A stretch of DNA of 64,000 nucleotides from Novosphingopyxis baekryungensis DSM 16222 (GTDB lineage Bacteria; Pseudomonadota; Alphaproteobacteria; Sphingomonadales; Sphingomonadaceae). Shown piece after piece: positions 11,127-56,634 of this stretch. The notes below the pieces were generated by a model, which was not told where the DNA came from, did no database searches, and saw nothing but the letters and a program-made list of their open reading frames with translations. The stretch spans positions 206,588-270,587 of the forward strand of contig NZ_ATUR01000006.1 of the NCBI RefSeq assembly GCF_000420305.1. The letters run 5' to 3'. The stretch's first letter is position 1. Every line of letters starts with the position of its first letter. The translations under genes and the position numbers were made by a program.

Positions 11127-11130
11127 GCTG

Positions 11131-15753: not shown

Positions 15754-16443
15754 CTATCTCGGGCTGGCGATTTCGACCATGTCGTCCTGCATGACGGGGG
15801 CACGCAGCCGCGCGACCACGCCGGGAAATTCGTCCGGCACCATTGAGCCGAACAATGACAGACGCAGCACTTCGCGGCTCATGCGCGTGGCCAGCTTGCG
15901 CCGCTCGGCCTTGTTTTTGCTTTGGGACTGCGCCCAGACCGGCCACAGAAAGATGCTCGACAGAACGATCACCGATAGCGCCTGCGAATCGATATTGTCC
16001 TGTGCCAATTTGGTTCGCGAGAAACGCTGCAGAGAACCCTCGAACTCACGCCAGAAAGGATCGGCCGTCGGTTCGGGCGATGCCAGGATCTGCAATAGCC
16101 AGCCACGGCTGAGTTCCGCATTGTCCATGGCAAACACCGCCAGCCGGTGCATGGTGAGGCCAATATCGACCTCCTCGATCTTGCGCTCACCCTCGCTTGC
16201 CACATCACCGAACGCGGCTTCGTACATTCTGCTGGAGATGGAATCGAGCGTCGCCTTGACGAGCAGCTCACGCGAGGCAAAATGCTGATACACCGTGCCG
16301 CGATTGACGGCAGCCTTTTGCGCAACCGCTGAGATACTGATGGCATTGGCGCCGTTTCGCGCAAAGAGAGAGCATGATGCTTTCAGGATATCGAGACGCG
16401 TGGCCTCAGGGTCGCGAGGGCGTTTTCCAGCTTTTACCATCAT
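15754..16443 (-). CDS. TetR/AcrR family transcriptional regulator
   Basis: A 229-residue TetR-type repressor. The helix-turn-helix covers about residues 10-55 (ATRLDILKASCSLFARNG ... ISAVAQKAAVNRGTVYQHFASREL). The C-terminal helices are unlike those of the TetR at 8180, so it should bind another ligand. Two adjacent ATGs (16443 and 16440) are possible; GGAG stands just before them. It lies upstream of acuI on the same strand and may control the acuI-ligase-SnoaL unit. A short inverted repeat before its start is listed separately. Confidence 0.9.
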   Translation of the reverse strand: MMVKAGKRPRDPEATRLDILKASCSLFARNGANAISISAVAQKAAVNRGTVYQHFASRELLVKATLDSISSRMYEAAFGDVASEGERKIEEVDIGLTMHRLAVFAMDNAELSRGWLLQILASPEPTADPFWREFEGSLQRFSRTKLAQDNIDSQALSVIVLSSIFLWPVWAQSQSKNKAERRKLATRMSREVLRLSLFGSMVPDEFPGVVARLRAPVMQDDMVEIASPR

Positions 16444-19449: not shown

Positions 19450-19524
19450 CGATCTTCTTCCCTGCAAATCATTCGCTGCATCGGTGATCAAAACCGTTCC
19501 ACAATCATCTTGCTGTTGCAAATC

Positions 19525-19539
19525 TTGAATGCTATTCAA
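19525..19539. promoter_or_regulatory. Palindrome TTGAAT-N3-ATTCAA before the IclR gene, likely IclR operator
   Basis: A perfect 15-base inverted repeat with six-base arms ends eight bases before the IclR start codon and about 75 bases before the divergent acyl-CoA ligase start. Related half-sites (GAAT, ATTC) continue into the start codon region. Its size and position fit an IclR operator controlling both directions, including autoregulation. Evidence is by sequence symmetry only. Confidence 0.6.
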
Positions 19540-19547
19540 TATATCGA

Positions 19548-20345
19548 ATGGCCGACACTGATGGAAAACCACCGCTCGGCACGGTTGTGCGCGAAAGCAA
19601 AGCTCCTGCCATTGCGCGCGCCTCCGCCATCCTTCGTCTCTTGGGCCGAAGCGATATTCCGCTGGGATTACAGCCTATTGCGCGGAAATTGGATCTGGTA
19701 CCGAGCACCTGTCTCTACGTTCTCAGGGCTTTGGTCGCCGAAGAGCTGGTCAGTTTCGAACCGCAGACAAAGCGCTATTCGCTGGGGTCCGGCCTGTTAT
19801 CGCTGGCGCGATCTTGGTTGCACCGTGATCCCTTCGCCGGTTTGGCCCAACCCATGATCGATGAAATCGCCAATCGATTCGGCGTAACCTGCGTGGCGGT
19901 GGAAATTTCCGGCCTCGATCGGTTCACGGCCGTGGCCGTTTCAAAAGCCGGGGGCAACTTCCGGCTAAGCACCGAGGTGGGCAGCCGTTTCCCTGCATTG
20001 ATTAGTGCCACAGGTCGCTGCATCGCCGCCAATGGCGCGTTCGAGGAAAAGCGCCTGCGCGCCCGCTTCGATAAACTGCGCTGGGATGATCCGCCCAGTT
20101 TCGAGGAGTGGCAGGCGCAGGTTGCGGAGGCCCGCGAGCGCGGATTTGGCCTCGATGCCGGCCATTATATAGCAGGGGTCACCGTGTTGGCCGCCCCCGT
20201 ATTCAAGGCAGCTGGCGCGCCAAGTCATGCCTTATCCGCCACAGCCCTGTCCCGCACGCTGACGCCGGATGCGATCCCCGAGCTGGCCGACGCCCTGATC
20301 GGTAAATGCAATCTATTGTCGCGCCAGATTTCGCAGGCGGCCTAG
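19548..20345 (+). CDS. IclR family transcriptional regulator
   Basis: A 265-residue regulator with an N-terminal winged helix (about residues 20-85, ending SFEPQTKRYSLGSGLLSLA) and a C-terminal GAF-like effector domain (VGSRFPALISATGRCIAA, ARERGFGLDAGHYIAGVTVLAAPV). These are the standard IclR features. It is transcribed away from the acyl-CoA ligase/dehydratase unit and toward the end of the nine-gene minus-strand run. Its stop overlaps the stop of the beta-propeller gene by two shared bases at CTAG. A palindrome sits directly before its start. Confidence 0.93.
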   Translation: MADTDGKPPLGTVVRESKAPAIARASAILRLLGRSDIPLGLQPIARKLDLVPSTCLYVLRALVAEELVSFEPQTKRYSLGSGLLSLARSWLHRDPFAGLAQPMIDEIANRFGVTCVAVEISGLDRFTAVAVSKAGGNFRLSTEVGSRFPALISATGRCIAANGAFEEKRLRARFDKLRWDDPPSFEEWQAQVAEARERGFGLDAGHYIAGVTVLAAPVFKAAGAPSHALSATALSRTLTPDAIPELADALIGKCNLLSRQISQAA

Positions 20346-21928
20346 ATCGGCCGAACCACCAATACGCTGCCTTCCGCATCGCCGGACACATAGACCCTGC
20401 CATCGGACGCGGCGGCCACCCCGCAAAACGGCACCATCGGCCCGGACATATCGCCGACGCCGCCAAGCAATTTCGGTTGAACGCCCGGCGGTGCCTTGAC
20501 CGGCAGCGCGGTTGCGATGTCCTCAGTCGTGCCGTCCGTCAGATTATGAGCGATGAGCTTTTTGGCAGCGACATCGACCACGAAAAGCCTGTCGCCCTCC
20601 AGCGCGATACCTTGTGGCTCCCCCAAGCCATCGATCACGGTCTCCGTCCGGCCGCCGGCGATGCGCACTATGCGGCCAGCGCCGCTTTCGCTCACATAGA
20701 CCTCGCCATCCGGCGTGACGGCAACCCCCATCGGCACATCCAGCCCTCGCGCCAGTTCTTCGATATGGCCATCGGCAGCGGACAACACACGGCCTGCTGC
20801 GCCGTCCGCAAAAACAGCCGCGCCGCCGCTGGACGAAGCCACGCCGTAGAGTAGTTCGAATCCGGCAGCGACTGGTTCGCTCTCGCCGCTATTTGGGCTC
20901 CACCGCATGACGGCGCCCAGTGAATTGGTGGTCAGCCAGGCGCCATTGCCTGCACTGGCAACGCCGCGGACGAAACCCGGGAAACCCGGTGAAAACAGAA
21001 AGCCGGCCGTCTCCAGGCCGTTTTCGCCAAGCATGTAAGCAAAGCCGCCATCGGCAACGAACAGCGCGCCATCCTGGTTCAGGGCGAGACCCATGGGCCA
21101 TTGCAACCCACGTTCGACCAATGCCCGCACCTGACCGTCCGCCAGGATTTCCGTCACCTCACCCGGTATCGACGATACGAACAGGCGATCACCGACAAAG
21201 GTGCAATTGTCGAGGCCGGGCGCAAGCTGGGCCAGGAGTTCCCGACTGCCGGACTGGGGATCAATCCGCAGGACCTGCCCCGATGCGACCTGCGTGGAGA
21301 CGATGCGGCCGTTGCTGTCGAACTTGACGGAATCGGGCACGCCCAGATCGCCGGCAACGACCTCATGGCGGCCGCTGTCAAGATCGACCCGCCATATCTC
21401 GTTGGTCGCCATCATCGGCATATAGAGCTTGCCATCCGGGCCGATTTCGAACGCATTGGGCATTGGCGCGTCAGCCATGATTTCGCGCCGTCCGCCGCCG
21501 TTCCGATCCAGCTCGAACACCCGTCCGCCCATGCGGCACTCGCCCGCGAAAAGGCGGTCCTGATGCACCGTGATCGGATTGGCGACGGGCATATCGTCGG
21601 CAATGATACTATATTCACCCGATCCGGTCATCATGGACACCCGGCCAAGCGTGATCTCGGTCGCGTACATATTGCCCGCACTATCGAAGGCGATGTCGTC
21701 CGGCGCGGTGATTGGCCCATCGATGGCGCTGATAACCTTAAGCGCGCCACTGTCGATATCGAGCGCCGTGACGGCGCTTCCGGCCACTTGTGCCACATAG
21801 ATTCGTCCGTCCGGTCCGGTGCGCAGACCATTGGCACCGAACAGCCGGCTGGCCGGCGTCGCCCGGTCGATCCGCCACCCCTCCGCCGCCTGGGCGCCCG
21901 ATGGTCCCCTATAGCGACTGGATATCAT
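20342..21928 (-). CDS. Cytoplasmic double SMP-30/NHL beta-propeller protein
   Basis: A 528-residue protein made of repeated beta-propeller blades of the SMP-30/gluconolactonase/NHL type (GPDGRIYVAQVAGS, DSAGNMYATEI, GPDGKLYMPMM, TPDGEVYVSESGAGRI). The length is about twice that of a normal SMP-30 lactonase, giving two propellers. No signal peptide is present, so it stays in the cytoplasm. Its ATG overlaps the ALDH stop by one base, making it the last gene of the long run. A lactonase role, opening lactones formed by the Baeyer-Villiger enzyme, would fit but is not shown by catalytic residues. The longer upstream frame was rejected as it overlaps ALDH. Confidence 0.82.
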   Translation of the reverse strand: MISSRYRGPSGAQAAEGWRIDRATPASRLFGANGLRTGPDGRIYVAQVAGSAVTALDIDSGALKVISAIDGPITAPDDIAFDSAGNMYATEITLGRVSMMTGSGEYSIIADDMPVANPITVHQDRLFAGECRMGGRVFELDRNGGGRREIMADAPMPNAFEIGPDGKLYMPMMATNEIWRVDLDSGRHEVVAGDLGVPDSVKFDSNGRIVSTQVASGQVLRIDPQSGSRELLAQLAPGLDNCTFVGDRLFVSSIPGEVTEILADGQVRALVERGLQWPMGLALNQDGALFVADGGFAYMLGENGLETAGFLFSPGFPGFVRGVASAGNGAWLTTNSLGAVMRWSPNSGESEPVAAGFELLYGVASSSGGAAVFADGAAGRVLSAADGHIEELARGLDVPMGVAVTPDGEVYVSESGAGRIVRIAGGRTETVIDGLGEPQGIALEGDRLFVVDVAAKKLIAHNLTDGTTEDIATALPVKAPPGVQPKLLGGVGDMSGPMVPFCGVAAASDGRVYVSGDAEGSVLVVRPI

Positions 21929-23346
21929 CAACCATGTCCCAGGATGGATTTCAGCTCCAGATAGTCGTCGAAGCCTGCCGTGCCCCATTCGCGGCCATTT
22001 CCGCTCTTCTTGTAGCCGCCGAAGGACGCGTGGAAATCGAACCCGTTGTTGATCGCGACCCAACCGGCGCGGATGCGGCGAGCGACCTTGCGCGCCTCCT
22101 CCATATCGGAACCGGAGACATAGCCGGCCAAGCCATATTCGGTGTCGTTCGCAATCGCGATCGCATCCTCGAGATCGGCATAGCCATGGATCGTCAGCAC
22201 CGGCCCGAAGATTTCCTCCCGCGCGATGGTCATGTCACTGGCCACATCGGCAAAAACCGTGGGTTTGACATAGTAGCCTTTGTCCAACCCGTCCGGGCGA
22301 CCGGGCCCGCCCGCAACGAGCGTCGCACCTTCTGCCATGCCTTTTTCGATCAGGCCCTGGATTTTGGCGAACTGCGCGCCGTTCACCACCGGCCCCATAG
22401 CGGCATTGCCGTTGGGATCTCCCACGGTCGTCTCGTCTGCCGCGCTCTTGGCGATCTGCTTGGCTTCTTCCATGCGCGCCTGCGGCACCAGCATACGGCT
22501 CGGCGCGCTGCAGGTCTGGCCGGAATTGCCCATCATGGATTGCACGCCGCCGTGAATATTCGCGGCGAACGCATCATCGTCCAGGATGATGTTCGGGCTT
22601 TTGCCGCCCAGCTCCTGTGTCACGCGCTTCACCGTGGCGGCAGCATTTTTCGCGATTTCCACGCCGGCACGGGTCGAGCCGGTGAAGCTTATCATGTCGA
22701 TATCGGGATGCCCCGACATCGCCGTGCCCACACCAGGGCCGTCTCCCTGGATCATGTTGAACACGCCGGCAGGCACCCCCGCCGCATCCAGAATCTCGGC
22801 AAAGATCTGCGCCGAAAATGGCGCCACTTCGCTGGGTTTGAGCAGCATGGTGCAGCCGCTGGCGAGCGCCGGAAACACCTTCACGGCAATCTGGTTCATC
22901 GGCCAGTTCCACGGCGTAATAAGGCCGCATACGCCGATCGGTTCTTTCACGAACAGCGTATCGCCCTTCTGCGTTTCGAAAGAATAGTCGCGCAGTACCT
23001 CGATCGCGGTCGCCAGATGCCCGGCACCAAGACCGACCTGAAACCCGTTGGCGAGCGACGCGGGCGCTCCCATTTCCTCCGTAATGGCGGCAGCCAGGTC
23101 TTCCTGACGCTTCTGATACTGGGCCTGGATCGCCTCTAGCAGATCCAGCCGCTCCTGCCGCGACGATTGGCCCCAACTGGCAAATGCCGTACGTGCGGCG
23201 GAAACGGCCTTGTCCACATCCGCTGCACTGCCAAGCGAAATGCGCCCCACGGTCGTCTCGGTCGCCGGGTTCTCGACATCCACGGTCTTCGCCGACACAG
23301 GATCGACCCACTGGCCGCCGATATAGAATTTCAGATAGTCGCGCAT
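21928..23346 (-). CDS. NAD(P)-dependent aldehyde dehydrogenase
   Basis: A 472-residue classical aldehyde dehydrogenase with the base Glu in QELGGKSPN, the catalytic Cys in SGQTCSAPSR, FTGSTRAGVEI and ITPWNWPMNQ. It would oxidise aldehydes in the cytoplasm. Encoded 29 bases after the ThDP enzyme, whose family releases aldehydes from 2-hydroxyacyl-CoAs or 2-oxoacids, it may take that product. AGGAGAGAG stands just before its ATG. Its last base is shared with the start of the beta-propeller gene. Confidence 0.93.
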   Translation of the reverse strand: MRDYLKFYIGGQWVDPVSAKTVDVENPATETTVGRISLGSAADVDKAVSAARTAFASWGQSSRQERLDLLEAIQAQYQKRQEDLAAAITEEMGAPASLANGFQVGLGAGHLATAIEVLRDYSFETQKGDTLFVKEPIGVCGLITPWNWPMNQIAVKVFPALASGCTMLLKPSEVAPFSAQIFAEILDAAGVPAGVFNMIQGDGPGVGTAMSGHPDIDMISFTGSTRAGVEIAKNAAATVKRVTQELGGKSPNIILDDDAFAANIHGGVQSMMGNSGQTCSAPSRMLVPQARMEEAKQIAKSAADETTVGDPNGNAAMGPVVNGAQFAKIQGLIEKGMAEGATLVAGGPGRPDGLDKGYYVKPTVFADVASDMTIAREEIFGPVLTIHGYADLEDAIAIANDTEYGLAGYVSGSDMEEARKVARRIRAGWVAINNGFDFHASFGGYKKSGNGREWGTAGFDDYLELKSILGHG

Positions 23347-23375
23347 GGCTCTCTCCTTCGACGGGTGGATCCGGC

Positions 23376-25163
23376 TTATTGCGTGCCTTCCGCATACCAG
23401 GTGCGGAATTTCTCATATTTGGGCATTTCTTCGGAATTGGCCTTGGGGTCGATCGGCACGTGGATCACCGTGGTACCGCCGCGCGCATAGGCCCGCTCGA
23501 TGGCCGGGCCGATCTCGTCCGCAGTGGCCACGAACTCGCCATGCGCGCCCAGGCCTTCGGCGATCTTGTCGAAGCGAACGCTCTCGCTCCAGTGCGTCCC
23601 TGTCTCCGAGGTGCCATGGCCGAAGGTGCGCTTGTAAACGCCCACTTCCAGCCCCCACTGGAAATCGACACCCACCACACACACCAATGGCAGGTTGCAG
23701 CGCACCGCCACTTCCAGTTCGGCGATGTGGAACAGGAACGATGAGTCCGACGTGACGAGCATGCCGGGACGCTTTTTCCCTGTTTCCGCCTGATCGGCCA
23801 GCATGGCGCCAGTGGCATAGGGAAGCCCTGTACCAATATGCCCGTAATTCTGGTTCCAGATCACATCATGCGGCTTGCACTGATTATAGGTCCAACCGAA
23901 CACCACGGTCGCGCCGCCATCGCGGATCATGATGCCGTCCTTGGGGAACGCCTTGGTCGCCTCGACAATGAACCGCGATGTGTGGATCGGAACGTCGCCT
24001 GTCCCATCGCTCTTGGTCATTACCTCCTCGGCAAGTTCGTCGAGTTCGGCCTGGCCGTCATGCATGAACTTTTTCAGATCGTCGGTCGGCTTCAGACCAT
24101 CGCCAAGCGCGCGGGTAAGCTGCGGCACCACGGCGCGCAAATCACCAACCAGCGGCACGTCGATCGGGCGGTTGACGCCGATCGCGGTCGGGTCCTGCTG
24201 CACATAAATCCACTTTCGCTCGGACTCCAGCGCATGCCAGTGTCGCCACCGGCCGAAATGCACCGGCTCGCCCAATTCGGTGCCGAGCGCGAGGACCACA
24301 TCGCACCGTTCCACCGCTTCGATCGAAGCATCTGAAAAAACATATTGGAACGTGCGATCCTCGATGCCCTCAATATAGCTGGTGCCACCAGAGGTCTGGA
24401 TGACCGGACAGTTCATCGCCAGCGCCAGATCGCGGACCGCCGCGCCCGATTGGCTGGTATGGACGGCATGGCCGACCAGCAGGATTGGATGCTTGGCGTT
24501 CCTGATCAGTTCGGCCGCCTCGGCGATACGATCTCCGTCGGCGCCCTGGTTGGTCAGGCGATAGCGATGCGGCGGGAGGATATCCGGAACGTCCAGCTCT
24601 TCCAGAATGACATTGCTGGGATATTCTACATAGGCCGGACCCGGCGTTCCGGACATGGCCACGCGGATGGCTTCGCGGATCACCTCGTCTGTCTGATCGG
24701 CATATTCGATGGCACCGGAATATTTTACCGAATCCTCGATCATCGGCTCCTGCCGCACAAACTGGATGCGGCCCCGCCGTACGCGCCGCTCGGTGACCCG
24801 CGCGCGCTGGCCGCCAAGGAAAATGACCGGCGAATTTTCCACCTTACAGCATTGAATGGCCGGCATCATATTGGCCAGGCCCGGCCCCAGCGTGCCGAAG
24901 GCCACGGCGGGTTTTCCGGTAATACGGCTGGCCGCCTCCGCCATGAATCCTGCCGATGCCTCATGATGCGGCGAGACCACGGTCCAGCCGCGTCGTTCGG
25001 CTTCGAGACACAGATGGACGAAGTTGGGATCGGGAATACCGAAGAGCGTCTTGATGCCTTCCGCCTCGAACAGGTCCAGCATGCGTTTGTAGACGGGCGT
25101 TCCGCCCTGCTTGGCCTTCAAGTCGGATGTCGCGGTCATCGGCTTGGGGTCGTCGTAGCTCAT
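23376..25163 (-). CDS. Thiamine diphosphate-dependent enzyme of the acetolactate synthase/2-hydroxyacyl-CoA lyase type
   Basis: A 595-residue protein with the three ThDP-enzyme domains. The activating glutamate is Glu68 in SPHHEASAGF. The magnesium/ThDP motif normally GDG...NN reads SDSSF ... VGVDFQWG, so the aspartate is kept but both glycines and the asparagines are changed. The fold resembles acetolactate synthases and 2-hydroxyacyl-CoA lyases; the exact reaction is open (C-C cleavage or decarboxylation releasing an aldehyde is likely). The ATG at 25163 follows AAGGAG by five bases. It lies between the Rieske oxygenase and the ALDH in the long run. Carbon-carbon cleavage of a hydroxylated side chain or ring would fit. 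Confidence 0.8.
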   Translation of the reverse strand: MSYDDPKPMTATSDLKAKQGGTPVYKRMLDLFEAEGIKTLFGIPDPNFVHLCLEAERRGWTVVSPHHEASAGFMAEAASRITGKPAVAFGTLGPGLANMMPAIQCCKVENSPVIFLGGQRARVTERRVRRGRIQFVRQEPMIEDSVKYSGAIEYADQTDEVIREAIRVAMSGTPGPAYVEYPSNVILEELDVPDILPPHRYRLTNQGADGDRIAEAAELIRNAKHPILLVGHAVHTSQSGAAVRDLALAMNCPVIQTSGGTSYIEGIEDRTFQYVFSDASIEAVERCDVVLALGTELGEPVHFGRWRHWHALESERKWIYVQQDPTAIGVNRPIDVPLVGDLRAVVPQLTRALGDGLKPTDDLKKFMHDGQAELDELAEEVMTKSDGTGDVPIHTSRFIVEATKAFPKDGIMIRDGGATVVFGWTYNQCKPHDVIWNQNYGHIGTGLPYATGAMLADQAETGKKRPGMLVTSDSSFLFHIAELEVAVRCNLPLVCVVGVDFQWGLEVGVYKRTFGHGTSETGTHWSESVRFDKIAEGLGAHGEFVATADEIGPAIERAYARGGTTVIHVPIDPKANSEEMPKYEKFRTWYAEGTQ

Positions 25164-25280
25164 CCTGGCTCCTTCGTCGCAGCGCGTTGCGGCGCATGCG
25201 TTTGCATGATTATCGTAGATGTCTGTGACACAGAGCGGGGGCATGCCAGCCCGCCCGCCGCGAAACCGCTTCGGCGATGC

Positions 25281-26693
25281 TCAGTCGGTGTCGATAAGCC
25301 TGGGGCCGCCGCTGCCCATGAAATCGGCAAGATTGCGGTGCAGGTTGATGACCTTCTGCTCCTGATGCGGATTGGGTAGCGGACCGCGGAAGCCGGAGCT
25401 TTTCATGCCTTTGTGGACATATTGCATATTGTCGAAGTCCTGCTGCAGCACGAGGCCCCAGTTCTCACCCGTCGGATCGGCATGAACCCATTCGGTTTCC
25501 GGGGCTTCACCCTCGGGAAACCGTTCGAGCGCATAGCTTTCGAAAATGCACTTGTTCGGATCGTCACCATAAGGGCGCACGCGATAGCACAGCGCAAAAG
25601 TCGCGCCGTGAAGGATGTTCTGATTGGGGAACAGTCCCCAGGCCAGGCCGGACTCCTTCTGGATATCCGCCGGGATATCCGGCCAGATCACGCCACGCTT
25701 GGCATCGTCTGCCTTGGCTGACTTGATCCAGTGCGCGATGACATCGGCAGACGAAGTGCCCTCGGGCAGCTCTTCCTCCAGGCGGCTCGCCGCGGCGACC
25801 AGCGTCTCTGTGGAGGCCGAATAATTCACCGTCTCGTAATTGGTCTTGATCAGCTGATAGGTGGAAATACGCGGATCGAGGCCGCTTTTGCCGGACCGCG
25901 TGGTGCCACCGCTGGTCTCTCCGGCATCCTGGTCTCGCACATCGTAACCGGATACCGAATGAAGGCCGAATTGCTTGGAATAGGCATAATAATCGCCGAA
26001 TTCGAGCAACTGCGTGTGCGTGCCGGCAACATGATAGGGCTCCAGAAACGCTTCGATGGCGACCTTCCAGTTGCAATCGTAGATCGCCCATTGGCGCCAT
26101 TTGTAACGCATCTTGGACAGCTCGTGCGCTTCCAGCACATCGCCGGCAAAGCCCATCCAGTCCTTCAGGGGAACGGCATCCTTATCCATATTGATATAGA
26201 TGAAGCCGCCCCAGCTATCGACCTGCACCTCGGACAAACAGGTCATCTCCGGTGTCAGCTTGTCGTGCCAGTCCTGCTGGTCGAGAATATAGGTGTTGTT
26301 GCCGTCGCTATCGAAGCTCCAGCCGTGGAAGCCGCAGATGAAACTCTTGCGGTTATTCCCGCGCACATCATGGATCTTGCCGGGCATCATGTCCGGAACC
26401 GACACCAACTGGCGGCCGCGGTGCGGGCAGACATTGTGGAACGCCTTGAGCGACCCGTCATCCTTGCGCAGGATGATGACGGACTCGTCGGCCACATTAT
26501 AGGTCATCCAATCACCCGGATCGGGCAAATCCTCTTCCCGTTCGACCATCTGCCAGATGCGGGGCCACAGGCGCTTCTTCTCGTTTTCCAGATAATCACG
26601 GCTGAAAAATGGCTCGGTCGGATAGGTAACCAGCTTCTCGTCATCCATGTCGGACGCGCTGATCACGCGCTCGATTTTTTCCGGTTTATTCAT
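25281..26693 (-). CDS. Rieske non-heme iron oxygenase, catalytic (alpha) subunit
   Basis: A 470-residue oxygenase. The Rieske [2Fe-2S] ligands are Cys89, His91, Cys120 and His123 (CPHRG ... CGFHGW). The mononuclear iron site has His221 and His226 in EPYHVAGTH and an Asp near 419 in QQDFD. It belongs to the ring-hydroxylating oxygenase family, yet no beta subunit, ferredoxin or reductase gene accompanies it, so it probably works as a homotrimer with electron carriers from elsewhere. It sits in the nine-gene run, 21 bases after the FAD monooxygenase gene. The substrate class cannot be read; the neighbours suggest a polycyclic or terpenoid acid. Confidence 0.92.
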   Translation of the reverse strand: MNKPEKIERVISASDMDDEKLVTYPTEPFFSRDYLENEKKRLWPRIWQMVEREEDLPDPGDWMTYNVADESVIILRKDDGSLKAFHNVCPHRGRQLVSVPDMMPGKIHDVRGNNRKSFICGFHGWSFDSDGNNTYILDQQDWHDKLTPEMTCLSEVQVDSWGGFIYINMDKDAVPLKDWMGFAGDVLEAHELSKMRYKWRQWAIYDCNWKVAIEAFLEPYHVAGTHTQLLEFGDYYAYSKQFGLHSVSGYDVRDQDAGETSGGTTRSGKSGLDPRISTYQLIKTNYETVNYSASTETLVAAASRLEEELPEGTSSADVIAHWIKSAKADDAKRGVIWPDIPADIQKESGLAWGLFPNQNILHGATFALCYRVRPYGDDPNKCIFESYALERFPEGEAPETEWVHADPTGENWGLVLQQDFDNMQYVHKGMKSSGFRGPLPNPHQEQKVINLHRNLADFMGSGGPRLIDTD

Positions 26694-26714
26694 CTCAGGT
26701 CTCCGATCGCACCT

Positions 26715-28559
26715 TCAGTTTGCATCTTCCGGAACACGGACATCCATGCCGGGCATGTCACCAGAATCGCGCCACTCTTTCAGCATGTTCAGAAAGTCAT
26801 GCCAGCCCGCACCCCATGGCCGGAAAAGCCCCCATTTATGGTCTTTGGCGCCTTCATTATTGAAATAGCTTGGCGGGCAGGCATTCAGGAAAGCCGATTG
26901 ATCGATCGTCGTCTCTTCGAAATGACGGACATAATCATCCATCGCCTGCTTGCTGGGCTCCACCTGTTCGGCACCGCGCTTGAGCGCCTCGGCGATGATC
27001 CAGGCGATATGCTCGCCCTGCCGACCGAACTGCTCGGTCACCGAGGCGTTGAGGCCGCCTTGAATATAGCCGATGAAAAACTGGTTCGGAAATCCATGGG
27101 TCATCGTGCCGTGCAGGGTGAGCGGCCCGTCGGACCAATGGTCATATAGCGAGAGGCCGCCGCGCCCCTCGACGCGGTCGATCCCCCAGCGCCGGTCGAG
27201 ATCGCTCGTCACCTCGAAACCGCTGGCGAAGATGATGCTGTCGCAGGCATATTCCTGCCCGTTGGCGACGAAGCCCCGTTCCGTCAGCCGCTCGATCCCG
27301 CGCGTTTCGGACACGTCGATCAGATCGACATTATCCCGATTGAAGGCGGGATAAAAGGCGTCGCTGGAAAGCGGGCGCTTGCACATGAAATAATAATAGG
27401 GGCGCAGCGCCTCGGCCGTCGCGCCGTCTTCCACCATTTCGTCCACGCGCCGACGCAGCCGCTCCATGACACGGTGATCCATGATGCTGCGGCGTTTGAG
27501 AAACTCTTCCTGATCGATCTGCGGCCAGCCCTCTTCGCCAAGCTCGGCCGCCATGTTGCGGCTGATCTCGGTCCAGAAATCCTGCACCATGTCCTCGTCG
27601 TCCGGGCCATAGGTTTCCATGGCACCCTTGTGGAAATTGTCCCGCCGCTGGGCCTGCCAGCCGCTCGGCTGGGATCGAAACCAATCCTCGTCCGTCTCCG
27701 GGTTCGGGCGTGCGTCCACCGTGGCCGGGGTGCGTTGGATGACGTAGAGATGTTCCGCATGTTCGGCGAGGCGCGGCACCGCCTGAATGGCCGTGGCCCC
27801 GGTGCCGACGATCGCCACCTTCTGATCGCCCAATTTGTCCAGCACGGGATTTTCCGCCGTGCCGCCGGTATAGTCATAATCCCAGCGCGCGGTGTGGAAA
27901 AGTCGCCCCTTATACGCATCCATGCCCTGCAATGCCGGCAGTTTCGGCATGTTGAGCACACCATTGGCCATTACCACGAAGCGCGCCTTGATCTGGTCGC
28001 CGCGATTGGTCGTCACCTGCCAACGGCTTGTGCGATCGTCCCACACAAGATCGGTAACCTGCGTATGGAACAGCCCCTTTTCGGCAAAACCGAACTGCTC
28101 CGCTATCTGCCGGATATATCCCTGGATCTCGCGGCCATCGGCGAACTTTTTGGACGGGAGGAAACCGGTTTCCTCCAGCAGCGGCAGATAGCAGTAGGAA
28201 TCATTGTCACACTGAATGCCGGGATAGCGATTCCAGTACCAGACGCCGCCGAAATCGCCCGCGGTATCGAGCATGCGAAAATCGGTCACACCCGCCTGCA
28301 TCAGATGATACGCCGCCAGAACGCCGCCGAAGCCGGCCCCCAGCACGACGACATCGATCTCATCGCTTATCGCTTCGCGCGGCGCGACATCCTGATGCGG
28401 ATCGCGTGAATAATCGGGCAGATTGGCGCCCTGCGGCTTCACATAATCGCGCTGACCCTGTGGTCGCAAACGCCGTTCGCGCTCCTCAGCATAGCGCGCA
28501 ACCATGGAATCGACGTCTATCTCTTCGATCGGCGGCACATCGCTTTTCTTCAAACGCAT
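26715..28559 (-). CDS. FAD-dependent Baeyer-Villiger-type monooxygenase
   Basis: A 614-residue flavoprotein with two Rossmann motifs (GAGFGG at 74-79 and GTGATA at 252-257) and between them the type I Baeyer-Villiger fingerprint YKGRLFHTARWD (216-227). It should insert oxygen beside a ketone to make an ester or lactone, using NADPH. An N-terminal stretch of about 65 residues precedes the FAD domain, as in cyclopentadecanone- and steroid-type enzymes. ATG 28559 has GAGG seven bases before it; the longer frame has no ribosome site. Encoded in the same run as the KstD-like flavoprotein and the Rieske enzyme. A ketone on a ring or side chain is the expected substrate. Confidence 0.9.
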   Translation of the reverse strand: MRLKKSDVPPIEEIDVDSMVARYAEERERRLRPQGQRDYVKPQGANLPDYSRDPHQDVAPREAISDEIDVVVLGAGFGGVLAAYHLMQAGVTDFRMLDTAGDFGGVWYWNRYPGIQCDNDSYCYLPLLEETGFLPSKKFADGREIQGYIRQIAEQFGFAEKGLFHTQVTDLVWDDRTSRWQVTTNRGDQIKARFVVMANGVLNMPKLPALQGMDAYKGRLFHTARWDYDYTGGTAENPVLDKLGDQKVAIVGTGATAIQAVPRLAEHAEHLYVIQRTPATVDARPNPETDEDWFRSQPSGWQAQRRDNFHKGAMETYGPDDEDMVQDFWTEISRNMAAELGEEGWPQIDQEEFLKRRSIMDHRVMERLRRRVDEMVEDGATAEALRPYYYFMCKRPLSSDAFYPAFNRDNVDLIDVSETRGIERLTERGFVANGQEYACDSIIFASGFEVTSDLDRRWGIDRVEGRGGLSLYDHWSDGPLTLHGTMTHGFPNQFFIGYIQGGLNASVTEQFGRQGEHIAWIIAEALKRGAEQVEPSKQAMDDYVRHFEETTIDQSAFLNACPPSYFNNEGAKDHKWGLFRPWGAGWHDFLNMLKEWRDSGDMPGMDVRVPEDAN

Positions 28560-28685
28560 TGCTATCCTCGCATCACTTTGAAACGACGATAGACCAATCG
28601 ATGCGCGCTGTGTGCGATGTGCGGCCATCGCCCCGGATTATCGCGGCGGCGATAGCGGGCCGTGGCTCTTGCGGCCGGCCATGGC

Positions 28686-29141
28686 TCAGCCCGCTGCGTG
28701 AAACCGCCCGAGGCCGTCCTGTTCGCTCAGCGGCCCCGACAGATCAATCGGACCGCGATATTTCAACGTCCAAGACCGCTCCGCGAACGTCCACTCGCCC
28801 GCCGCTTCAACATATCGGTCATGATAGGTGCCGACGGTAAAAAATTGCGTGCCATCCGGCATCCATGCAAATTCGGTCATCGTGACACGGCCTGCTATTG
28901 CCTCATCCTCGGCGCGCAGGATCGGCTGCCCGGTTATCAGATGGACATGTTCGCATCGCCCCAGCAGCTGCACGCAGGCTTGCTCGATCGCTTCGCGCCC
29001 GGAGAAATCATGGCCCGCGATGGACCATCGTCCCTGGCTGGCAAAGCAGGCCGCGAATTCCTCTGCGTCCTGCCGCCAGGCAGCATCCGCAAAACGTGCA
29101 TGGAGCTGTCGAATAGCAAAATCAGCGGCGATCATGTCCAT
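28686..29141 (-). CDS. SnoaL/NTF2-like protein
   Basis: A 151-residue NTF2-fold protein (helix AIRQLHARFADAAWRQD, FSGREAIEQACVQLLG, and a closing WTFAERSWTLKYRG). Related folds include ketosteroid isomerases and SnoaL-type cyclases. A HVHLITGQP segment follows the helix that carries the catalytic Asp in such enzymes, but no certain active site is visible. ATG 29141 (MDMIAADF) follows AGGGA. It lies 16 bases after the KstD-like gene, which suggests that it acts on the product of that enzyme, for example moving a double bond. This is inference. Confidence 0.8.
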   Translation of the reverse strand: MDMIAADFAIRQLHARFADAAWRQDAEEFAACFASQGRWSIAGHDFSGREAIEQACVQLLGRCEHVHLITGQPILRAEDEAIAGRVTMTEFAWMPDGTQFFTVGTYHDRYVEAAGEWTFAERSWTLKYRGPIDLSGPLSEQDGLGRFHAAG

Positions 29142-29157
29142 GGTCGATCCCTGTTCC

Positions 29158-30846
29158 TTAGGCTGCATTATCCAGACCGGCGGCGTGACGTGCGGCGATA
29201 TATCCAAAAGTCACCGCCGGTCCGATGCTCGCGCCGGCCCCCGCATAGACATTGCCCATGACCGATGCCGTCGATACGCCGGTGGCATACAATCCTTCGA
29301 TCACGGATCCGTCCTGGCGCAGCACGCGCCCGCATTCGTCGGTCACCGCGCCGCCGTAGGTGCTGACATCGCCGGGAACGACCGGCACAGCGTAAAAAGG
29401 GCCTTTCGCGACGGTGCCCAGAGAAGGCTCTGCCGAGAAAGGATCGCCCACGAAGCCGCAGCCATCATAAGCGCGCGCGCCGCGATGGAATTGCGCATCC
29501 TCTCCATTGGCCACGAAACCGTTCCACTGCGTAATCGTGTCTGAGAGACGGGCTGGGTCGACATCGATGCTGTGCGCCAGCCCCCGGATGCTATCCGATT
29601 TGTGCAAATAGCGCTCTTCGATCCAGCGCTTGGGCGGCTTCTTGTCGATAAACTGGCCGGCCACCTGATATTTGGCGGTATATTGGGAGTCGAAGATAGC
29701 CCAGCTTGGCACCGCGGGCACCTCGCGATGCCGTTTCAGCATGGTTTCGCAATAGAGTTCGTACGAGCCGCCTTCGTTCATATAACGGACGCCGGACTGA
29801 TCGACCAAAATGGCATGCGGCTTGCCGGTAAGGCCCTGTGCACCAGGCAGCACATAATTCGCTTCGCTGCCGGGCGAGATCGTGGCCTGGTAACCGACCA
29901 TCTGGTCCATCTGGGCAAGCTGCGCGCCAATCCGCTCCATTTCCTTGTGCAGATCGCCGGTGTCTCCCTCCGGCACCAGGCTCCATTCCGAATTGGTGCC
30001 TGGCATGTATCGGTCACGCATGGCCTGGTTTTTGGCAAAGCCACCGGCATTGACAAGCACGCCGCGCGAGGCACGAATGACCTTCTGCCCGCCATCAACG
30101 CTCACGGCGACGCCGACCACGGCATCCTGATCGGTGACCAGCTGCGTCACGGCCGCCTCGAACCTGATCGTGGTGCCGGCATCGATCGCAGCCTTGAACA
30201 GGCGGCCCTGCAGGGCGGCGCCCGCGGTCGTAAATTTGCGGCCCAGCAATTTGTCCTTGATGGTGCGCAGCGCCATGCGCAGCATCATCTTGCCAGCTTC
30301 CGGATTGGTCCGGCGATGCCCCATCTTCATGGCATCGGCCAAGAGCACATTATATTCGGCAAATCCCTTGCGCAGCCGGCTCTGCATCGGGCCCAATTGC
30401 TTCAGATCGAACGGTTCGGCCACCACCGTTCGGGTGGTTTTGCAGCCGCCGGGCAACTCGTCATAATAATCGGGCCAGAATTCCGGGCCCCGCCGCAGCG
30501 CCACCCCTTGCGCCACCAGAAAGTCCACCGCTCTGGGGCCTGCCTCCAGAAACGCCCGGCGCTTGGCGGGGCTTGTTCCGGAAGCTGGCGCACCATCGAG
30601 TTCCTGCAGGGCATCGAGATATCGCTCGGCCTTCGCAAGGTCATCATCCTCCCCCTCTGCCAGCATGAACGGATTGGCCGGCACCCACATGACGCCACCG
30701 GATTTGGCCGTCGTCCCGCCTGCAAATCCGGTCTTCTCGAGGATCAGAACGGAATAGCCAGCCTCTCGCATGACCAGTGCGGAAGCGAACGACCCCGCTC
30801 CGCTGCCGACGACAATCCAGTCAAACGTCTCATCAAAGGGGGGCAT
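29158..30846 (-). CDS. FAD-dependent dehydrogenase of the 3-ketosteroid-Delta1-dehydrogenase/fumarate reductase family
   Basis: A 562-residue flavoprotein with the FAD loop GSGAGS (residues 14-19), TTAKSGGVMWVP, and a C-terminal FAD element GNVYAGAGASIGPAVTFGYIA. In 3-ketosteroid-Delta1-dehydrogenases a Tyr and a Gly four residues later in this last element, and a Tyr in the region here reading VRYMNEGGSY, belong to the active site; both patterns are visible. It may therefore desaturate a 3-keto ring, though related enzymes reduce fumarate-like acids. It is encoded 12 bases after the hotdog dehydratase. No signal peptide or heme motif is present. Substrate assignment is tentative. Confidence 0.83.
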   Translation of the reverse strand: MPPFDETFDWIVVGSGAGSFASALVMREAGYSVLILEKTGFAGGTTAKSGGVMWVPANPFMLAEGEDDDLAKAERYLDALQELDGAPASGTSPAKRRAFLEAGPRAVDFLVAQGVALRRGPEFWPDYYDELPGGCKTTRTVVAEPFDLKQLGPMQSRLRKGFAEYNVLLADAMKMGHRRTNPEAGKMMLRMALRTIKDKLLGRKFTTAGAALQGRLFKAAIDAGTTIRFEAAVTQLVTDQDAVVGVAVSVDGGQKVIRASRGVLVNAGGFAKNQAMRDRYMPGTNSEWSLVPEGDTGDLHKEMERIGAQLAQMDQMVGYQATISPGSEANYVLPGAQGLTGKPHAILVDQSGVRYMNEGGSYELYCETMLKRHREVPAVPSWAIFDSQYTAKYQVAGQFIDKKPPKRWIEERYLHKSDSIRGLAHSIDVDPARLSDTITQWNGFVANGEDAQFHRGARAYDGCGFVGDPFSAEPSLGTVAKGPFYAVPVVPGDVSTYGGAVTDECGRVLRQDGSVIEGLYATGVSTASVMGNVYAGAGASIGPAVTFGYIAARHAAGLDNAA

Positions 30847-30858
30847 GATCTGTGGCGA

Positions 30859-32028
30859 TCAATCAGGTTTCTTCGGCAAGGCAATTTCGGCCGTGCCCGT
30901 CGCCATCACCGTGCCCGCCTGGTTTTCCATCCGGTGCTTGATGTGGATGAGATGGCGGCCATGCTCGTCAACCGACTTGTCGGTCACTTCGGCAGTCTGG
31001 ATCGTGATATCGCCCGTCAGTGCCGGGCCGCGATAATTGCCGATGGTGTGCACCACCATGCCGAACTCCCCTGCCCAGCCTGCCAGATAGTCGATGATCC
31101 ATGATCCCATCGAGGCGCCATATCCATAGCCCCGCGGCATGCCGATCCGGCGCGCCCATTTGGGAAACAGATGGCCACGCGATGGACCGATATAGGCGCC
31201 GTCCGTGAGCTCTGGATTGATCAACATCATCCCGGGATCATTTTCATATCCGGCCATTTCGCGCGTGAAGCCCATAGCTTCCAGATCCTGTTCGCGAAAC
31301 TGCATCGCACCCCATGTGTTCATGTAGAATGCGCGCCATTCGGTGGTGAAGCTGGCAATCGAGTGGGGACCGAACACACGCTCCGGCAGCTGATCGCCCA
31401 CCGCGATATCATCCCACCAGCGCTCGCCATGGCCAAGATCATGCAGCATCTTGATCCAGCCGAACTTGCGCTCTTCCAGCGTCTGCAGCTCTTCGTCGCT
31501 CCATTCCGGATCGTCCGCCTGCTCCACATTGGTGCTCTGTCCGCCCGCTTCCGCGCCGTAACGGATCGTGGTGGAGCGCTGGGTGGCGATCGCTTCGCCG
31601 TTCTGGTTGGAATAATGATTGTCGCCGCGTTGAAAGCAGGTTTCCCCCGCAAAGCCGGTTTCCTTCACCGCATAGTCGAAGGGAACGCTCTGCACGGAAA
31701 TATGATCGCCCGGCTTGATCTGCGGGCCGTTGAACCACCACTCATCCCCGCCGAACAACAGATGCGAATCCGGGATTTTGCCGACGCAGGCCGGCACCGC
31801 GCCATGCCCCCCATCACAAGCGATCGCGAAGCTCTGCGGTGCGATGATCCCGTTCCACCGACTGGCCTGCGCGTAATCGGGATCATAATGCAGCAGGTTG
31901 GGATAATGCATGGCATGTGCCCAGCGCCGGATATCATTGGTGGCGATCGGCTCGCGCAGCGTCGAGACATCCATGGCCTTGCCGAGATACTGGTCGATAT
32001 CGCTGAAATCGAGTTTTTGGGTCGCCAT
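30859..32028 (-). CDS. FAS1-like (MaoC) double-hotdog dehydratase
   Basis: A 389-residue protein of two hotdog domains, paralogous to the one at 16718-17860. Matching features are the N-terminal helix-turn region ATNDIRRWAHAMHYPNLLHYDPDYA and the second-domain WLTHH-like element reading YGYGASMGSWIIDYL. It is expected to hydrate an enoyl-CoA that is bulky or cyclic. GAGGATGG stands before the ATG. It lies between the acyl-CoA ligase (71 bases upstream) and the KstD-like gene (12 bases downstream), so activation, hydration and oxidation are co-expressed. Confidence 0.82.
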   Translation of the reverse strand: MATQKLDFSDIDQYLGKAMDVSTLREPIATNDIRRWAHAMHYPNLLHYDPDYAQASRWNGIIAPQSFAIACDGGHGAVPACVGKIPDSHLLFGGDEWWFNGPQIKPGDHISVQSVPFDYAVKETGFAGETCFQRGDNHYSNQNGEAIATQRSTTIRYGAEAGGQSTNVEQADDPEWSDEELQTLEERKFGWIKMLHDLGHGERWWDDIAVGDQLPERVFGPHSIASFTTEWRAFYMNTWGAMQFREQDLEAMGFTREMAGYENDPGMMLINPELTDGAYIGPSRGHLFPKWARRIGMPRGYGYGASMGSWIIDYLAGWAGEFGMVVHTIGNYRGPALTGDITIQTAEVTDKSVDEHGRHLIHIKHRMENQAGTVMATGTAEIALPKKPD

Positions 32029-32099
32029 GTCATTCCATCCTCTTGATACGGCCCCTTTGGTTGGGCCTCAGGGTTGGCAAGACAAGCAGGCGGGCCGCC

Positions 32100-33593
32100 T
32101 TATCGGTGCAGCGATGCAGACGGCCCGGCAAACAGATCGCGTACCGCGCTCCTGTCCGTCTTGAACGACACCGTGCGGGGCAAGTTGGCAACAAAGCGCC
32201 ATGCGGCAGGCACATGGGTTGCCGGGAGAGTGCGGCGTATATGCGCTTCCAGCTCTGCCGATGAGGGCGGTTCCAGCCCCGGCTTCAGCACGACGGCGGC
32301 GGCAGGAAGTTGCAGGAGCCGCCGATCGTCGATCCCGACAACGGAAACATCCGCGACAGCGGGATGCGTGCGCAGCGCTTCTTCCACCGCCTCCGGCATA
32401 ATTTTGAAACCGCCGCGCATGATCGCTCCATCGGAACGTCCGTGGAGATACAGAAATCCGTCCGCGTCGATCGTCCCCAGATCGGAGGTGACGATCCAGT
32501 CTCCGCCCATGCGCGGGCAGAGCACTTCCACCGTTCCCGACGCGCCGGATGGTGCCAGCGTGCCACTATCCTCATCCCGTATGCGCAGCTTGGCGCCTCC
32601 GATGGGGCGGCCGACACTGCCGGACTTTCCAGCACCATAGGCTTCACGCAATGGAAGCGTCATCGCTGACACCGGCCCGCCGAATTCGGTGGCGCCATAG
32701 GTTTGCAGAACGGGAATGCCGTACCGATCCTCGAATGTCTTCTGCACTTGCGGATTGACCGGCGCGGCTCCTGTCGAGAAATACCGCAGCGAAGAGAGAT
32801 CCTCTTCCGGCACGTCGTCGGCGAGGATCATCGCCAGGGCAGCCGGCGGGCCACCACTGGCCTGTGGACGGAATTCCACCACATAATCGCGCCAGTCCGC
32901 CACCGTGAAACGCTCTAGAAGGATCACCGATCGGCCGCGCAGAAAGGATGTTGCGAGGGTATACAGGCCGGAAATATTGCTCATCGGAAAACACAGGAGG
33001 GTCGGTGGGCCTTCCGCCCCAACGCGCTGCTTGGCCTGCCGGATATAATCCAGCACCACATCATATCCGATGGTAAAATGCTTGGGCGGACCGGTCGTCC
33101 CGCTGGTGAGTATTTCCAGCGCCGGGATGGCAGATGCACTCGCTGATGCTGTTCGCGCCGGGCAAATGCATGTGCTTCCATCGTCAGCCAGCGCGATGCC
33201 GGCGACGCCTTTTGCGTCGAGGATATCAATTAGCTCGGAGGAGAAATCGTCCCGGTCCATAATGATGGCAGAGACCGGCAGCGCCCGGATCGATGCCGCG
33301 ACTGCCTCGCCGGACTGAAAGGGATAGACCATGGTCACCCTCCGGCGGGTGGCCATCAACGCCAGGAAGGCCGACAGCGCCGTTGGCCTGTTGCGCGGCG
33401 CGAAAGCCACCGCCGCATCGGGCGCCACCCCGGCTTGCAGTAGCTTTTCGGTCAATGCCGCCGCGTGGCGCGCAACGTCCGTCCAGTCTATCCAACGGTC
33501 ACCATCGCGAATGGCGGGCCCCGTTTGGCGCAATGTCCGACGGCAAATATCGGCCAGGGCATGGGAAGGATCGGCATCGTCCTTGAAGGCCAC
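32100..33593 (-). CDS. AMP-forming acyl-CoA synthetase
   Basis: A ligase of about 497 residues with the phosphate loop LTSGTTGPPKHF, YGATEFGGP, TSDLGTIDADGFLYLHGRSDGAIMRGG and a C-terminal SFKTDRSAVRDL element bearing the late lysine. It converts a carboxylate to its CoA thioester. No in-frame ATG exists near the N-terminus; GTG 33593 (VAFKDDADPS), which follows TAGGAG by 11 bases, is my choice, with TTG 33698 as the longest option. It is the first gene of the nine-gene minus-strand run and divergent from the DapB-like gene, so the promoter of the run should lie at 33594-33781. Confidence 0.86.
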   Translation of the reverse strand: MAFKDDADPSHALADICRRTLRQTGPAIRDGDRWIDWTDVARHAAALTEKLLQAGVAPDAAVAFAPRNRPTALSAFLALMATRRRVTMVYPFQSGEAVAASIRALPVSAIIMDRDDFSSELIDILDAKGVAGIALADDGSTCICPARTASASASAIPALEILTSGTTGPPKHFTIGYDVVLDYIRQAKQRVGAEGPPTLLCFPMSNISGLYTLATSFLRGRSVILLERFTVADWRDYVVEFRPQASGGPPAALAMILADDVPEEDLSSLRYFSTGAAPVNPQVQKTFEDRYGIPVLQTYGATEFGGPVSAMTLPLREAYGAGKSGSVGRPIGGAKLRIRDEDSGTLAPSGASGTVEVLCPRMGGDWIVTSDLGTIDADGFLYLHGRSDGAIMRGGFKIMPEAVEEALRTHPAVADVSVVGIDDRRLLQLPAAAVVLKPGLEPPSSAELEAHIRRTLPATHVPAAWRFVANLPRTVSFKTDRSAVRDLFAGPSASLHR

Positions 33594-33781
33594 GATCTGG
33601 TTCACTCCTACAGCGCGGCTCGGCACATGAAACGCCGCCGAGAGCCAGGATAGGTTTCCGCTGGCTCTGGTCAAAATGAACGATGTTTGCCGGACCAAGC
33701 ATCGCCACCGCGCTTCTTTATCGGGCCGCTGGACGCGGCGGGCCTGCGATCTCTCAATTGCTGCGTCACGGGAGGTGCAGC

Positions 33782-43655: not shown

Positions 43656-43674
43656 CTCTTCTCTCCCTTGATCC

Positions 43675-43689
43675 GCCTGTTTTACAGGC
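43675..43689 (-). promoter_or_regulatory. Leader hairpin before the GH39-like/GH79-like unit
   Basis: GCCTGT-TTT-ACAGGC is a perfect six-base-pair hairpin ending about 20 bases upstream of the GH39-like start codon and just before its GGGAGAG ribosome site, so it is likely in the leader of the message. It may affect translation or mRNA stability. No T-run follows. Confidence 0.4.
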
Positions 43690-43723
43690 GCTGTGATGAA
43701 TAGTGCCGGTTCCGGTTCACCAG

Positions 43724-56630: not shown

Positions 56631-56634
56631 AGGC

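Follow-up and report, generated by a model that had tools for sequence, protein, structure and literature searches.

A tightly spaced nine-gene run in Novosphingopyxis baekryungensis

The window analysed here, a stretch of 64,000 nucleotides from the sphingomonad Novosphingopyxis baekryungensis DSM 16222 (contig NZ_ATUR01000006.1, positions 206,588 to 270,587), carries on its minus strand (20342..33593) a run of nine near-touching genes. In order, these code for an acyl-CoA ligase, a double-hotdog protein, a flavoprotein resembling 3-ketosteroid Delta1-dehydrogenases (hereafter KstD-like), a SnoaL-type protein, a Baeyer-Villiger monooxygenase (BVMO), a Rieske oxygenase, a thiamine diphosphate (ThDP)-dependent enzyme, an aldehyde dehydrogenase (ALDH) and a lactonase-like propeller (Table 1). 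All nine open reading frames (ORFs) were confirmed, and a Pfam family could be assigned to every one. The tight single-strand arrangement described in the initial annotation also holds, the spacing ranging from a 1-base overlap (ALDH/propeller) to 126 bases (between the SnoaL and BVMO genes, starting at 29141 and 28559, respectively). The gap between the Rieske and ThDP genes is 36 bases, or 117 if the alternative ThDP start at 25163 is used. The ligase ORF as called mechanically begins with a TTG at 33698; an alternative GTG at 33593, with AGGAG in front of it, is a plausible start. The same nine genes recur in identical order in Novosphingobium profundi (locus L064) and Novosphingobium sp. 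BW1 (locus L065), which, together with the retention of catalytic residues in the relatives of four of the enzymes, argues that the run is more than a chance assembly.

Active-site conservation and closest relatives

Residue conservation was counted in alignments of relatives, with the query included in each. In the Rieske protein, the CxH/CxxH cluster ligands and the 2-His-1-carboxylate iron site (H221, H226 and D419) that mark an alpha subunit are invariant in all 41 sequences. No gene for a Ring_hydroxyl_B (beta) subunit adjoins it among the neighbouring proteins scanned, a subset of the ORFs of the surrounding island, in keeping with the earlier description of an oxygenase without partner subunits. 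Glu218, three residues ahead of the iron ligand His221, is likewise invariant (41/41); the equivalent position is presumably Asp in dioxygenases of the NDO type. Carnitine monooxygenase is among the structures closest to this protein.

In the BVMO, G127, G128, W130, P136, G137, D141, G241, H245 and W249 are conserved in all 58 sequences, while two positions vary, 135 holding Y (54 sequences) or F (four) and 239 holding F (52) or Y (six); both type I fingerprints, which we take to be GGxWxxxxYPGxxxD and FxGxxxHxxxW, are present. Its closest named relatives are PtlE (pentalenolactone D synthase) among NCBIfam models and 5mq6, which we take to be the polycyclic-ketone enzyme PockeMO, among solved structures. 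As its score against PtlE, 612 bits, lies far below the cut-off of 1100, it is not PtlE itself; further, PtlE is biosynthetic, whereas the BVMO described here sits in a catabolic setting. The ALDH keeps E245 and C279 in 57 of 57 sequences. The alignment of the KstD-like protein with the KSTD of Rhodococcus erythropolis (4c3x) pairs the two at Y119, Y318, Y487 and G491, presumably the catalytic residues of that enzyme.

The ThDP enzyme preserves the ThDP Glu (E95) and the metal-binding Asp (D500) in all 83 sequences. Its metal motif reads S-D-S in most of them (71) and G-D-S in the remaining 12, with D500 and S501 invariant, in place of what we assume to be the usual GDG of ThDP enzymes. It shares the three-domain fold and conserved Glu with acetolactate synthase, benzaldehyde lyase, cyclohexane-1,2-dione hydrolase and 2-hydroxyacyl-CoA lyase (HACL), but is only 21-27% identical to the acetolactate synthase, HACL, Oxc and benzaldehyde lyase structures among the 50 fold matches listed. 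By sequence and fold it is about equally near acetolactate synthase, HACL and benzaldehyde lyase, and a fold search with its structure model (mean predicted local distance difference test score, pLDDT, 73) was unable to separate the three. It stays under the cut-offs of both the HACL model NF058623 (159 of 600 bits) and the acetolactate synthase model PRK08322 (241 of 509 bits). The cyclohexane-1,2-dione hydrolase structures 4d5g and 2pgn match it at 3.8e-29 and 4.9e-29, more weakly than does acetolactate synthase. The ThDP genes of two other genomes (G167 and G214; loci L007 and L008) show one TAG inside the matched stretch despite a 596-residue open frame, likely reflecting the edge of the match.

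A five-gene core recurs around the ThDP gene

Scanning named genomes with the ThDP protein yielded 125 relatives; the 80 best loci were retained and their content was determined by tblastn (at least 40% identity over at least 120 columns). Since these loci extend at most 10 kb per side and many are ended by contig ends, the resulting counts are lower bounds. The ThDP gene is accompanied by the ALDH in 64 loci, the BVMO in 54, and the Rieske oxygenase and propeller in 43 each; the complete core BVMO-Rieske-ThDP-ALDH-propeller is present in 31 of the 80, drawn from Alphaproteobacteria, Actinobacteria and one gammaproteobacterial metagenome-assembled genome (MAG; L084). The Rieske gene is always found with the BVMO gene (43/43), while the BVMO occurs without it in 11 loci. 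Rarer companions are a second ligase and a MaoC-type hydratase (16 loci each), an IclR-type regulator (14), SnoaL (9), hotdog (7), and the KstD-like protein and first ligase (2 each). Hence, the initial annotation's treatment of the nine genes as a unit does not stand: the recurring core comprises five of them and is joined in 14-16 of the 80 loci by the IclR gene and the second ligase/MaoC pair from outside the run, all of these being parts of an island some 75 kb long. The full order it proposed seeking in other sphingomonads does exist in L064 and L065, the only two of the 80 loci with all nine genes.

Carriers of the ThDP gene include Novosphingobium, Sphingobium, Sphingomonas, gammaproteobacterial MAGs and an uncultured Steroidobacter, along with an acidobacterial MAG, Mycobacterium, Nocardia and Actinomadura. 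Sphingobium boeckii DSM 25079 and Pontixanthobacter aquaemixtae KCTC 52763 are among the named strains with the module. In Sphingobium RAC03, Mycobacterium branderi and Rhodococcus USK13 (L021, L022 and L023), four to five core genes are plasmid-borne; the presence of the module on large plasmids is consistent with horizontal spread.

Upstream genes track the core across Sphingomonadaceae

In a panel of 397 Sphingomonadaceae genomes, our own included, the ThDP gene (at 1e-60) is restricted to 13 genomes from nine genera. The hotdog gene (E<=1e-90) is present in all 13 of these and in only two of the 384 others (G177 and G253; Fisher p 1.3e-22, or 3.5e-21 with our own genome excluded), and the KstD-like gene (E<=1e-200) in nine of the 13 against none of the 384 (p 1.2e-15; 3.5e-14 with our own excluded). 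The KstD-like gene lies 28-120 kb from the ThDP gene in G311, G321, G021 and G167, more than 1.6 Mb away in G203, and on a separate contig in G025, G214 and G287. Because the hotdog and KstD-like genes co-occur with the ThDP gene even when unlinked to it, these upstream genes belong with the core, though they are often far from it.

A closer comparison of 29 chosen genomes, 13 with and 16 without the ThDP gene, extends this pattern. The Rieske gene (at 1e-100) is present in 13/13 versus 0/16, and the BVMO (at 1e-150) in 13/13, with at least 52% identity, versus 6/16, at only 42-45%. The BVMO and Rieske genes are adjacent even where the ThDP gene is elsewhere (G171 and G287). In a comparison with a set of 18 other genomes, a fused double acyl-CoA dehydrogenase (ACAD) is found in 12 of the 13 (all but G027) versus 4 of the 18 (at 42-54% identity). 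At these cut-offs, ThDP, KstD, hotdog, BVMO and Rieske are all without a match in G051, the sole genome of the same genus sampled.

The surrounding island

We compared the stretches of eight other genomes with the window and the 100 kb of its own contig upstream, counting as shared those ORFs that are reciprocal best matches with at least 40% identity and more than 60% coverage; the ORFs were called by a codon-score script, which left out the SnoaL gene. Between -38.3 and +37.0 kb (window coordinates), 54 of 55 ORFs have a counterpart in the stretch of one or more other genomes; the number falls to 49 when two or more are required and to 35 for three or more. On the outer left flank (-100 to -60.4 kb) none of 24 ORFs is shared, and on the right 2/2 are shared from 49.5 to 52.3 kb and 0/9 from 52.3 to 62.5 kb; the zero sharing in the outer flanks provides an internal control. 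Scattered shared genes widen the region to about 113 kb.

Table 1. Genes of the run, of the surrounding island and of its borders, with their positions in the window unless stated otherwise
Gene or product	Coordinates	Strand	Matches and occurrence
AMP-forming acyl-CoA ligase (ACS), first gene of run	32100..33593	-	PF00501, E 3.2e-44; island family 28, 4 genomes including own
Double-hotdog hydratase/dehydratase (FAS1_DH region)	30859..32028	-	PF13452, E 3.3e-29
KstD-like flavoprotein (FAD_binding_2), predicted Delta1-dehydrogenase of a 3-keto ring	29158..30846	-	PRK12844, 527 bits (cut-off 789)
SnoaL_4/NTF2-fold protein	28686..29141	-	PF13577, E 3.1e-17
Type I Baeyer-Villiger monooxygenase (BVMO)	26715..28559	-	NCBIfam PtlE, 612 bits (cut-off 1100); best PDB match 5mq6, 356 bits
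Rieske non-heme iron oxygenase, alpha subunit	25281..26693	-	PF00355, PF00848
ThDP-dependent C-C lyase/hydrolase-like enzyme, three domains	23376..25244	-	PF02776, PF00205, PF02775
Aldehyde dehydrogenase (ALDH)	21928..23346	-	PF00171, E 1.9e-151
SGL/NHL propeller, lactonase-like	20342..21928	-	PF08450, E 1.1e-18; NCBIfam ScyE_fam, 117 bits (cut-off 80)
IclR-type regulator, between core and second ligase/MaoC pair	19548..20345	+	PF01614, PF09339; 14/80 loci
Second acyl-CoA ligase (ACSc)	17881..19572	-	PF00501; 16/80 loci
MaoC-type hydratase (MaoCb)	16718..17860	-	PF13452, PF01575; 16/80 loci
TetR regulator	15754..16443	-	PF00440; island family 32
MDR-type zinc/quinone oxidoreductase (ADHb)	14660..15643	-	PF00107, PF08240; 70-75% identity in islands of G321, G021, G167
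Third acyl-CoA ligase (ACSb)	12961..14643	-	PF00501; island family 10, 6 genomes including own
SDR oxidoreductase	10386..11285	-	PF00106; island family 65
Second aldehyde dehydrogenase (ALDHb)	8886..10364	-	PF00171; 74-76% in islands of G321, G021, G167
Enoyl-CoA hydratase	7137..7940	+	PF00378; 77-78% in islands of G321, G021, G167
Fused double acyl-CoA dehydrogenase	4923..7127	+	two ACAD stretches
Thiolase-like protein (Thiolase_C_1)	783..1943	-	PF22691; island family 44
DapB_N/DAP_DH_C oxidoreductase, divergent from run	33683..34825	+	PF19328, PF01113; same place in L064, L065; outside shared island families
Putative lipoprotein, 718 residues, GGSGGAY stretch	34831..36987	-	island family 15; shared with stretches of G021, G171, G203, G321
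Acyl-CoA dehydrogenase, outlying shared gene right of island	51045..52211	+	PF00441; island family 30, 4 genomes including own; relative of at least 40% identity in 22/80 loci
GH79b, sugar kinase, enolase-superfamily protein, UxaC, mannitol-dehydrogenase-family protein, DctP; predicted glucuronate use	L142 11518-19232 (own contig, left of window)	both	

The identified contents of the island, some of them already in Table 1, include ACADs, class III CoA transferases, TauD, a GFO/IDH protein, transporters of the major facilitator superfamily (MFS) and TonB types, a thiolase, ligases, short-chain dehydrogenases/reductases (SDRs) and a second Rieske protein; one ACAD has a sub-cut-off match to pimeloyl-CoA dehydrogenase. 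The putative lipoprotein at 34831-36987 has neither a Pfam nor a PDB sequence match, and its structure model, from an alignment of two rows, has a mean pLDDT of 32. Alpha and beta subunits resembling the E1 component of pyruvate dehydrogenase (-21573 to -19598) are common to six or seven genomes and adjoin the KstD gene in G321, G311 and G203; these could constitute a second ThDP-dependent cleavage step. An E2/E3-like pair lies outside the shared region (54847-58341). The compared stretches of five genomes also contain sulfate-activation genes (CysNC-like, 3'-phosphoadenosine-5'-phosphosulfate reductase and inositol-phosphatase family; L125 711-4284), and those of four contain a sulfotransferase.

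A predicted pathway of ring opening without aromatisation

We put at slightly better than even (roughly 55%) the reading that the nine genes are one segment of this island of about 75 kb, shared piecewise with other genera, and that the predicted role of the island is to break down a polycyclic compound, likely resembling a steroid or triterpenoid, whose rings are opened without prior aromatisation. The substrate class is suggested by the combination of the KstD-like protein, a BVMO of a bulky-ketone branch, the size of the island and its complement of CoA-chain enzymes.

The pathway may be pictured with the BVMO and the propeller as a putative lactone maker and lactone opener. SDRs would oxidise ring hydroxyls to ketones and the KstD-like enzyme would desaturate the 3-keto ring; the BVMO would then insert oxygen beside the ketone and the propeller hydrolyse the resulting lactone. 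The Rieske oxygenase, whose gene accompanies that of the BVMO, would hydroxylate the neighbouring carbon, and the ThDP enzyme would cleave the alpha-ketol, alpha-diketone or 2-hydroxyacyl bond so formed to release an aldehyde. This would be converted by the ALDH to an acid, which CoA ligases and CoA transferases may activate and hotdog/MaoC hydratases, ACADs and thiolases may shorten. The sequence of steps is our own reconstruction: reading it off the gene order, as the initial annotation did, finds no direct support, for that order varies between genomes and the KstD-like gene is unlinked or distant in eight other carriers. The broader idea in that annotation, of a separate polycyclic or terpenoid pathway, fits the gene content and co-occurrence, although its nine-gene boundaries proved too narrow.

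Several observations weigh against the reading of a coherent ring-opening island. First, the KstD-like gene is under the cut-off in 4 of the 13 ThDP genomes (G027, G171, G324 and G335) and thus may serve a subset of them. Second, G253 has the hotdog and fused ACAD genes with no ThDP match, a pattern that reflects either gaps in a 300-contig assembly or a gene set working without the ThDP enzyme. Third, 19 'type B' loci (18 from Novosphingobium, one from Sphingomonas) place the ThDP gene beside a divergent gene set encoding an ACAD, an HpcH-type lyase, a CoA transferase and an enoyl-CoA hydratase, mostly also with a class III CoA transferase and an ALDH; as the Rieske gene is absent nearby, the ThDP enzyme could act on a small, late intermediate. 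Fourth, the borders of the island are ragged: only 2/11 ORFs are shared from -54.4 to -38.3 kb and 0/6 from 37 to 49.5 kb, while all six from -60.4 to -54.4 kb are shared, with G167 alone; moreover, ThDP and KstD guided the choice of the stretches compared, and part of the sharing near these genes is therefore built in. Finally, when the best 25 NCBIfam families per protein were considered, the propeller alone exceeded a cut-off, that of ScyE (Table 1). The SnoaL protein fell narrowly short (33.1 versus 33.95 bits), the hotdog protein had no match, the KstD-like protein missed its curated cut-off and the top scores of the others among the families listed were far under theirs; hence, no equivalog names can be transferred to the run proteins.

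Saponins and sugar-related genes

A special case of the proposed ring-opening pathway, which we regard as possible but doubtful, is that the substrate is a glucuronidated oleanane-type triterpenoid saponin, from which an enzyme resembling glycoside hydrolase family 79 (GH79) would remove the glucuronic acid, with the BVMO and lactonase opening the non-aromatisable 4,4-dimethyl 3-keto ring A of the aglycone. GH79-like genes (at 1e-30) are enriched in ThDP genomes, with 5/13 against 10/384 others (p 4e-5; 4e-4 with our own excluded). One of these, GH79b, stands at the left end of our own island beside a CoA transferase and the predicted glucuronate-use genes, and it has relatives in G311, where the gene is placed within the core operon between those for ThDP and ALDH, and in G203, at a distance of about 10 kb from KstD. 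The linkage to island genes in these three genomes is suggestive, no more, of a glycoside substrate, perhaps a saponin. Against it, eight of the 13 ThDP genomes lack a GH79 match at this threshold; in G021 and G171 the matches are far from the ThDP gene or on another contig; and GH79b, a putative glycosidase, has no Pfam match at 1e-5. UxaC was rejected as a marker, being present in 12/13 ThDP genomes and adjoining the island in our own alone; the glucuronate genes by themselves therefore prove little.

To the right of the run, at 37074-48807 and within the outer limits of the shared region, lies a separate glycan-use locus with a TonB receptor, a GH79-like protein, two GH39-like proteins, an SGL protein and a protein matching PDB 6hzf (BPa0997), which we take to be a GH138 galacturonidase. 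Its glycosidases (40.5-48.8 kb) were dropped as support for a saponin and treated as belonging to a separate glycan locus, because none of the six ORFs from 37 to 49.5 kb is shared with the stretches compared and because a similar GH39-like/6hzf-like/GH79 trio in G171 lies far from its ThDP gene. The TonB receptor (37074-39977) has no match at 1e-40 in either of the genomes from which L064 and L065 come.

A close parallel is the catabolism of steroidal glycoalkaloids and saponins by Sphingobium RC1, likewise a sphingomonad, which combines glycosidases and oxidation of a steroid-type aglycone in one organism (PMC10653915). RC1 is reported to degrade steroid-type and not oleanane-type saponins, a point in favour of the oleanane reading, and the main text has no mention of Baeyer, Rieske, thiamine or glucuron. 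The titles and abstract openings listed in searches of the open-access literature, several listings giving the top entries of a longer set, included no paper recognised for this gene combination and no gene-level pathway for non-aromatisable ring systems such as triterpenoids. A bolder formulation, which we consider rather unlikely, is that of a novel aerobic pathway of Proteobacteria and Actinobacteria, partly borne on plasmids, that would mineralise triterpenoids or glucuronide saponins, a BVMO-Rieske cassette together with a ThDP-dependent C-C lyase opening the ring A that resists aromatisation.

Other routes considered

The ThDP enzyme might instead be a HACL in the alpha-oxidation of a branched acid, with ThDP and ALDH forming a late chain-shortening pair and the BVMO and Rieske oxygenase serving another step. 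HACL structures are among its closest by sequence and fold, the type B loci offer a Rieske-free setting with ALDH, CoA transferase III and ACAD, and TauD/TfdA-type oxygenases occur near the ThDP gene in two plasmid loci. However, the structures of acetolactate synthase and benzaldehyde lyase are roughly as good a match, and the score against the HACL model falls far below its cut-off. We hold this to be unlikely.

The degradation of abscisic acid or a related apocarotenoid is still less probable. Here, the ligase and hydratase would shorten the side chain until a methyl ketone is left, the BVMO and an esterase would remove acetate, and the ALDH would make the acetic acid. Bacterial degradation of the abscisic acid side chain resembles our system in a BVMO step, proposed by the authors for the second step, and an acid product, the authors leaving the enzymes open (PMC9599779); Rhodococcus and Novosphingobium are reported to include abscisic acid users (PMC9599779, PMC6938937), among them Novosphingobium P6W, with public RNA-seq of abscisic acid-grown cells under PRJNA529223 (PMC6938937), and both genera also contain carriers of the module. 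This reading is attractive for the BVMO and ALDH but ranks low on account of the KstD-like partner, which co-occurs with the module and has no evident place on the abscisic acid ring: the position that a Delta1-type enzyme would have to desaturate is occupied there by a quaternary carbon. In addition, a C15 substrate would hardly call for an island of 75 kb.

The classical 9,10-seco pathway of steroid catabolism rests on the KstD, KshAB and HsaABCD genes. Our island resembles it in having a Delta1-dehydrogenase-type enzyme with aligned KSTD catalytic residues, ligases, ACADs and MaoC/enoyl-CoA hydratases within a large gene cluster, but differs in its BVMO, single-subunit Rieske oxygenase, ThDP enzyme and propeller. 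KshA_C (PF19298) has no match in our own genome at 1e-3 and exceeds the cut-off in only 3/13 ThDP genomes; TIGR03213, a model of the BphC/HsaC type, has none in our own genome at E<=1e-20, with the caveat that it is BphC-like and could miss a divergent HsaC, and at that threshold it finds 3/13 ThDP genomes, none over cut-off. G167 is positive for both in the same searches (TIGR03213 at 5.7e-78). Its KshA_C and BphC/HsaC-type genes lie about 12 kb apart on contig C2 (319821-332874) in a classical-looking steroid locus. As its ThDP and KstD-like genes are on contig C3, this genome has both systems, each at a locus of its own. The contention of the initial annotation that the set departs from the standard Kst/Ksh/Hsa route is thus upheld; the classical pathway was rejected as a frame for the nine genes, and we think it very improbable that the run is a branch of it.

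It is equally improbable that functionally unrelated catabolic genes came together here by accident: although all nine occur together in only two of the 80 loci, the hotdog and KstD-like genes keep company with the ThDP gene even when unlinked to it.

Implications

The ThDP enzyme represents a family to which no solved structure is closely related and which exceeds no cut-off among the NCBIfam models listed. The ThDP, hotdog and KstD-like genes supply markers, with named carrier strains, for the proposed pathway. If the reading of ring opening without aromatisation is true, the island would provide a gene set for the bacterial degradation of ring systems, those of triterpenoids among them, that are not open to aromatisation by the steroid pathway.

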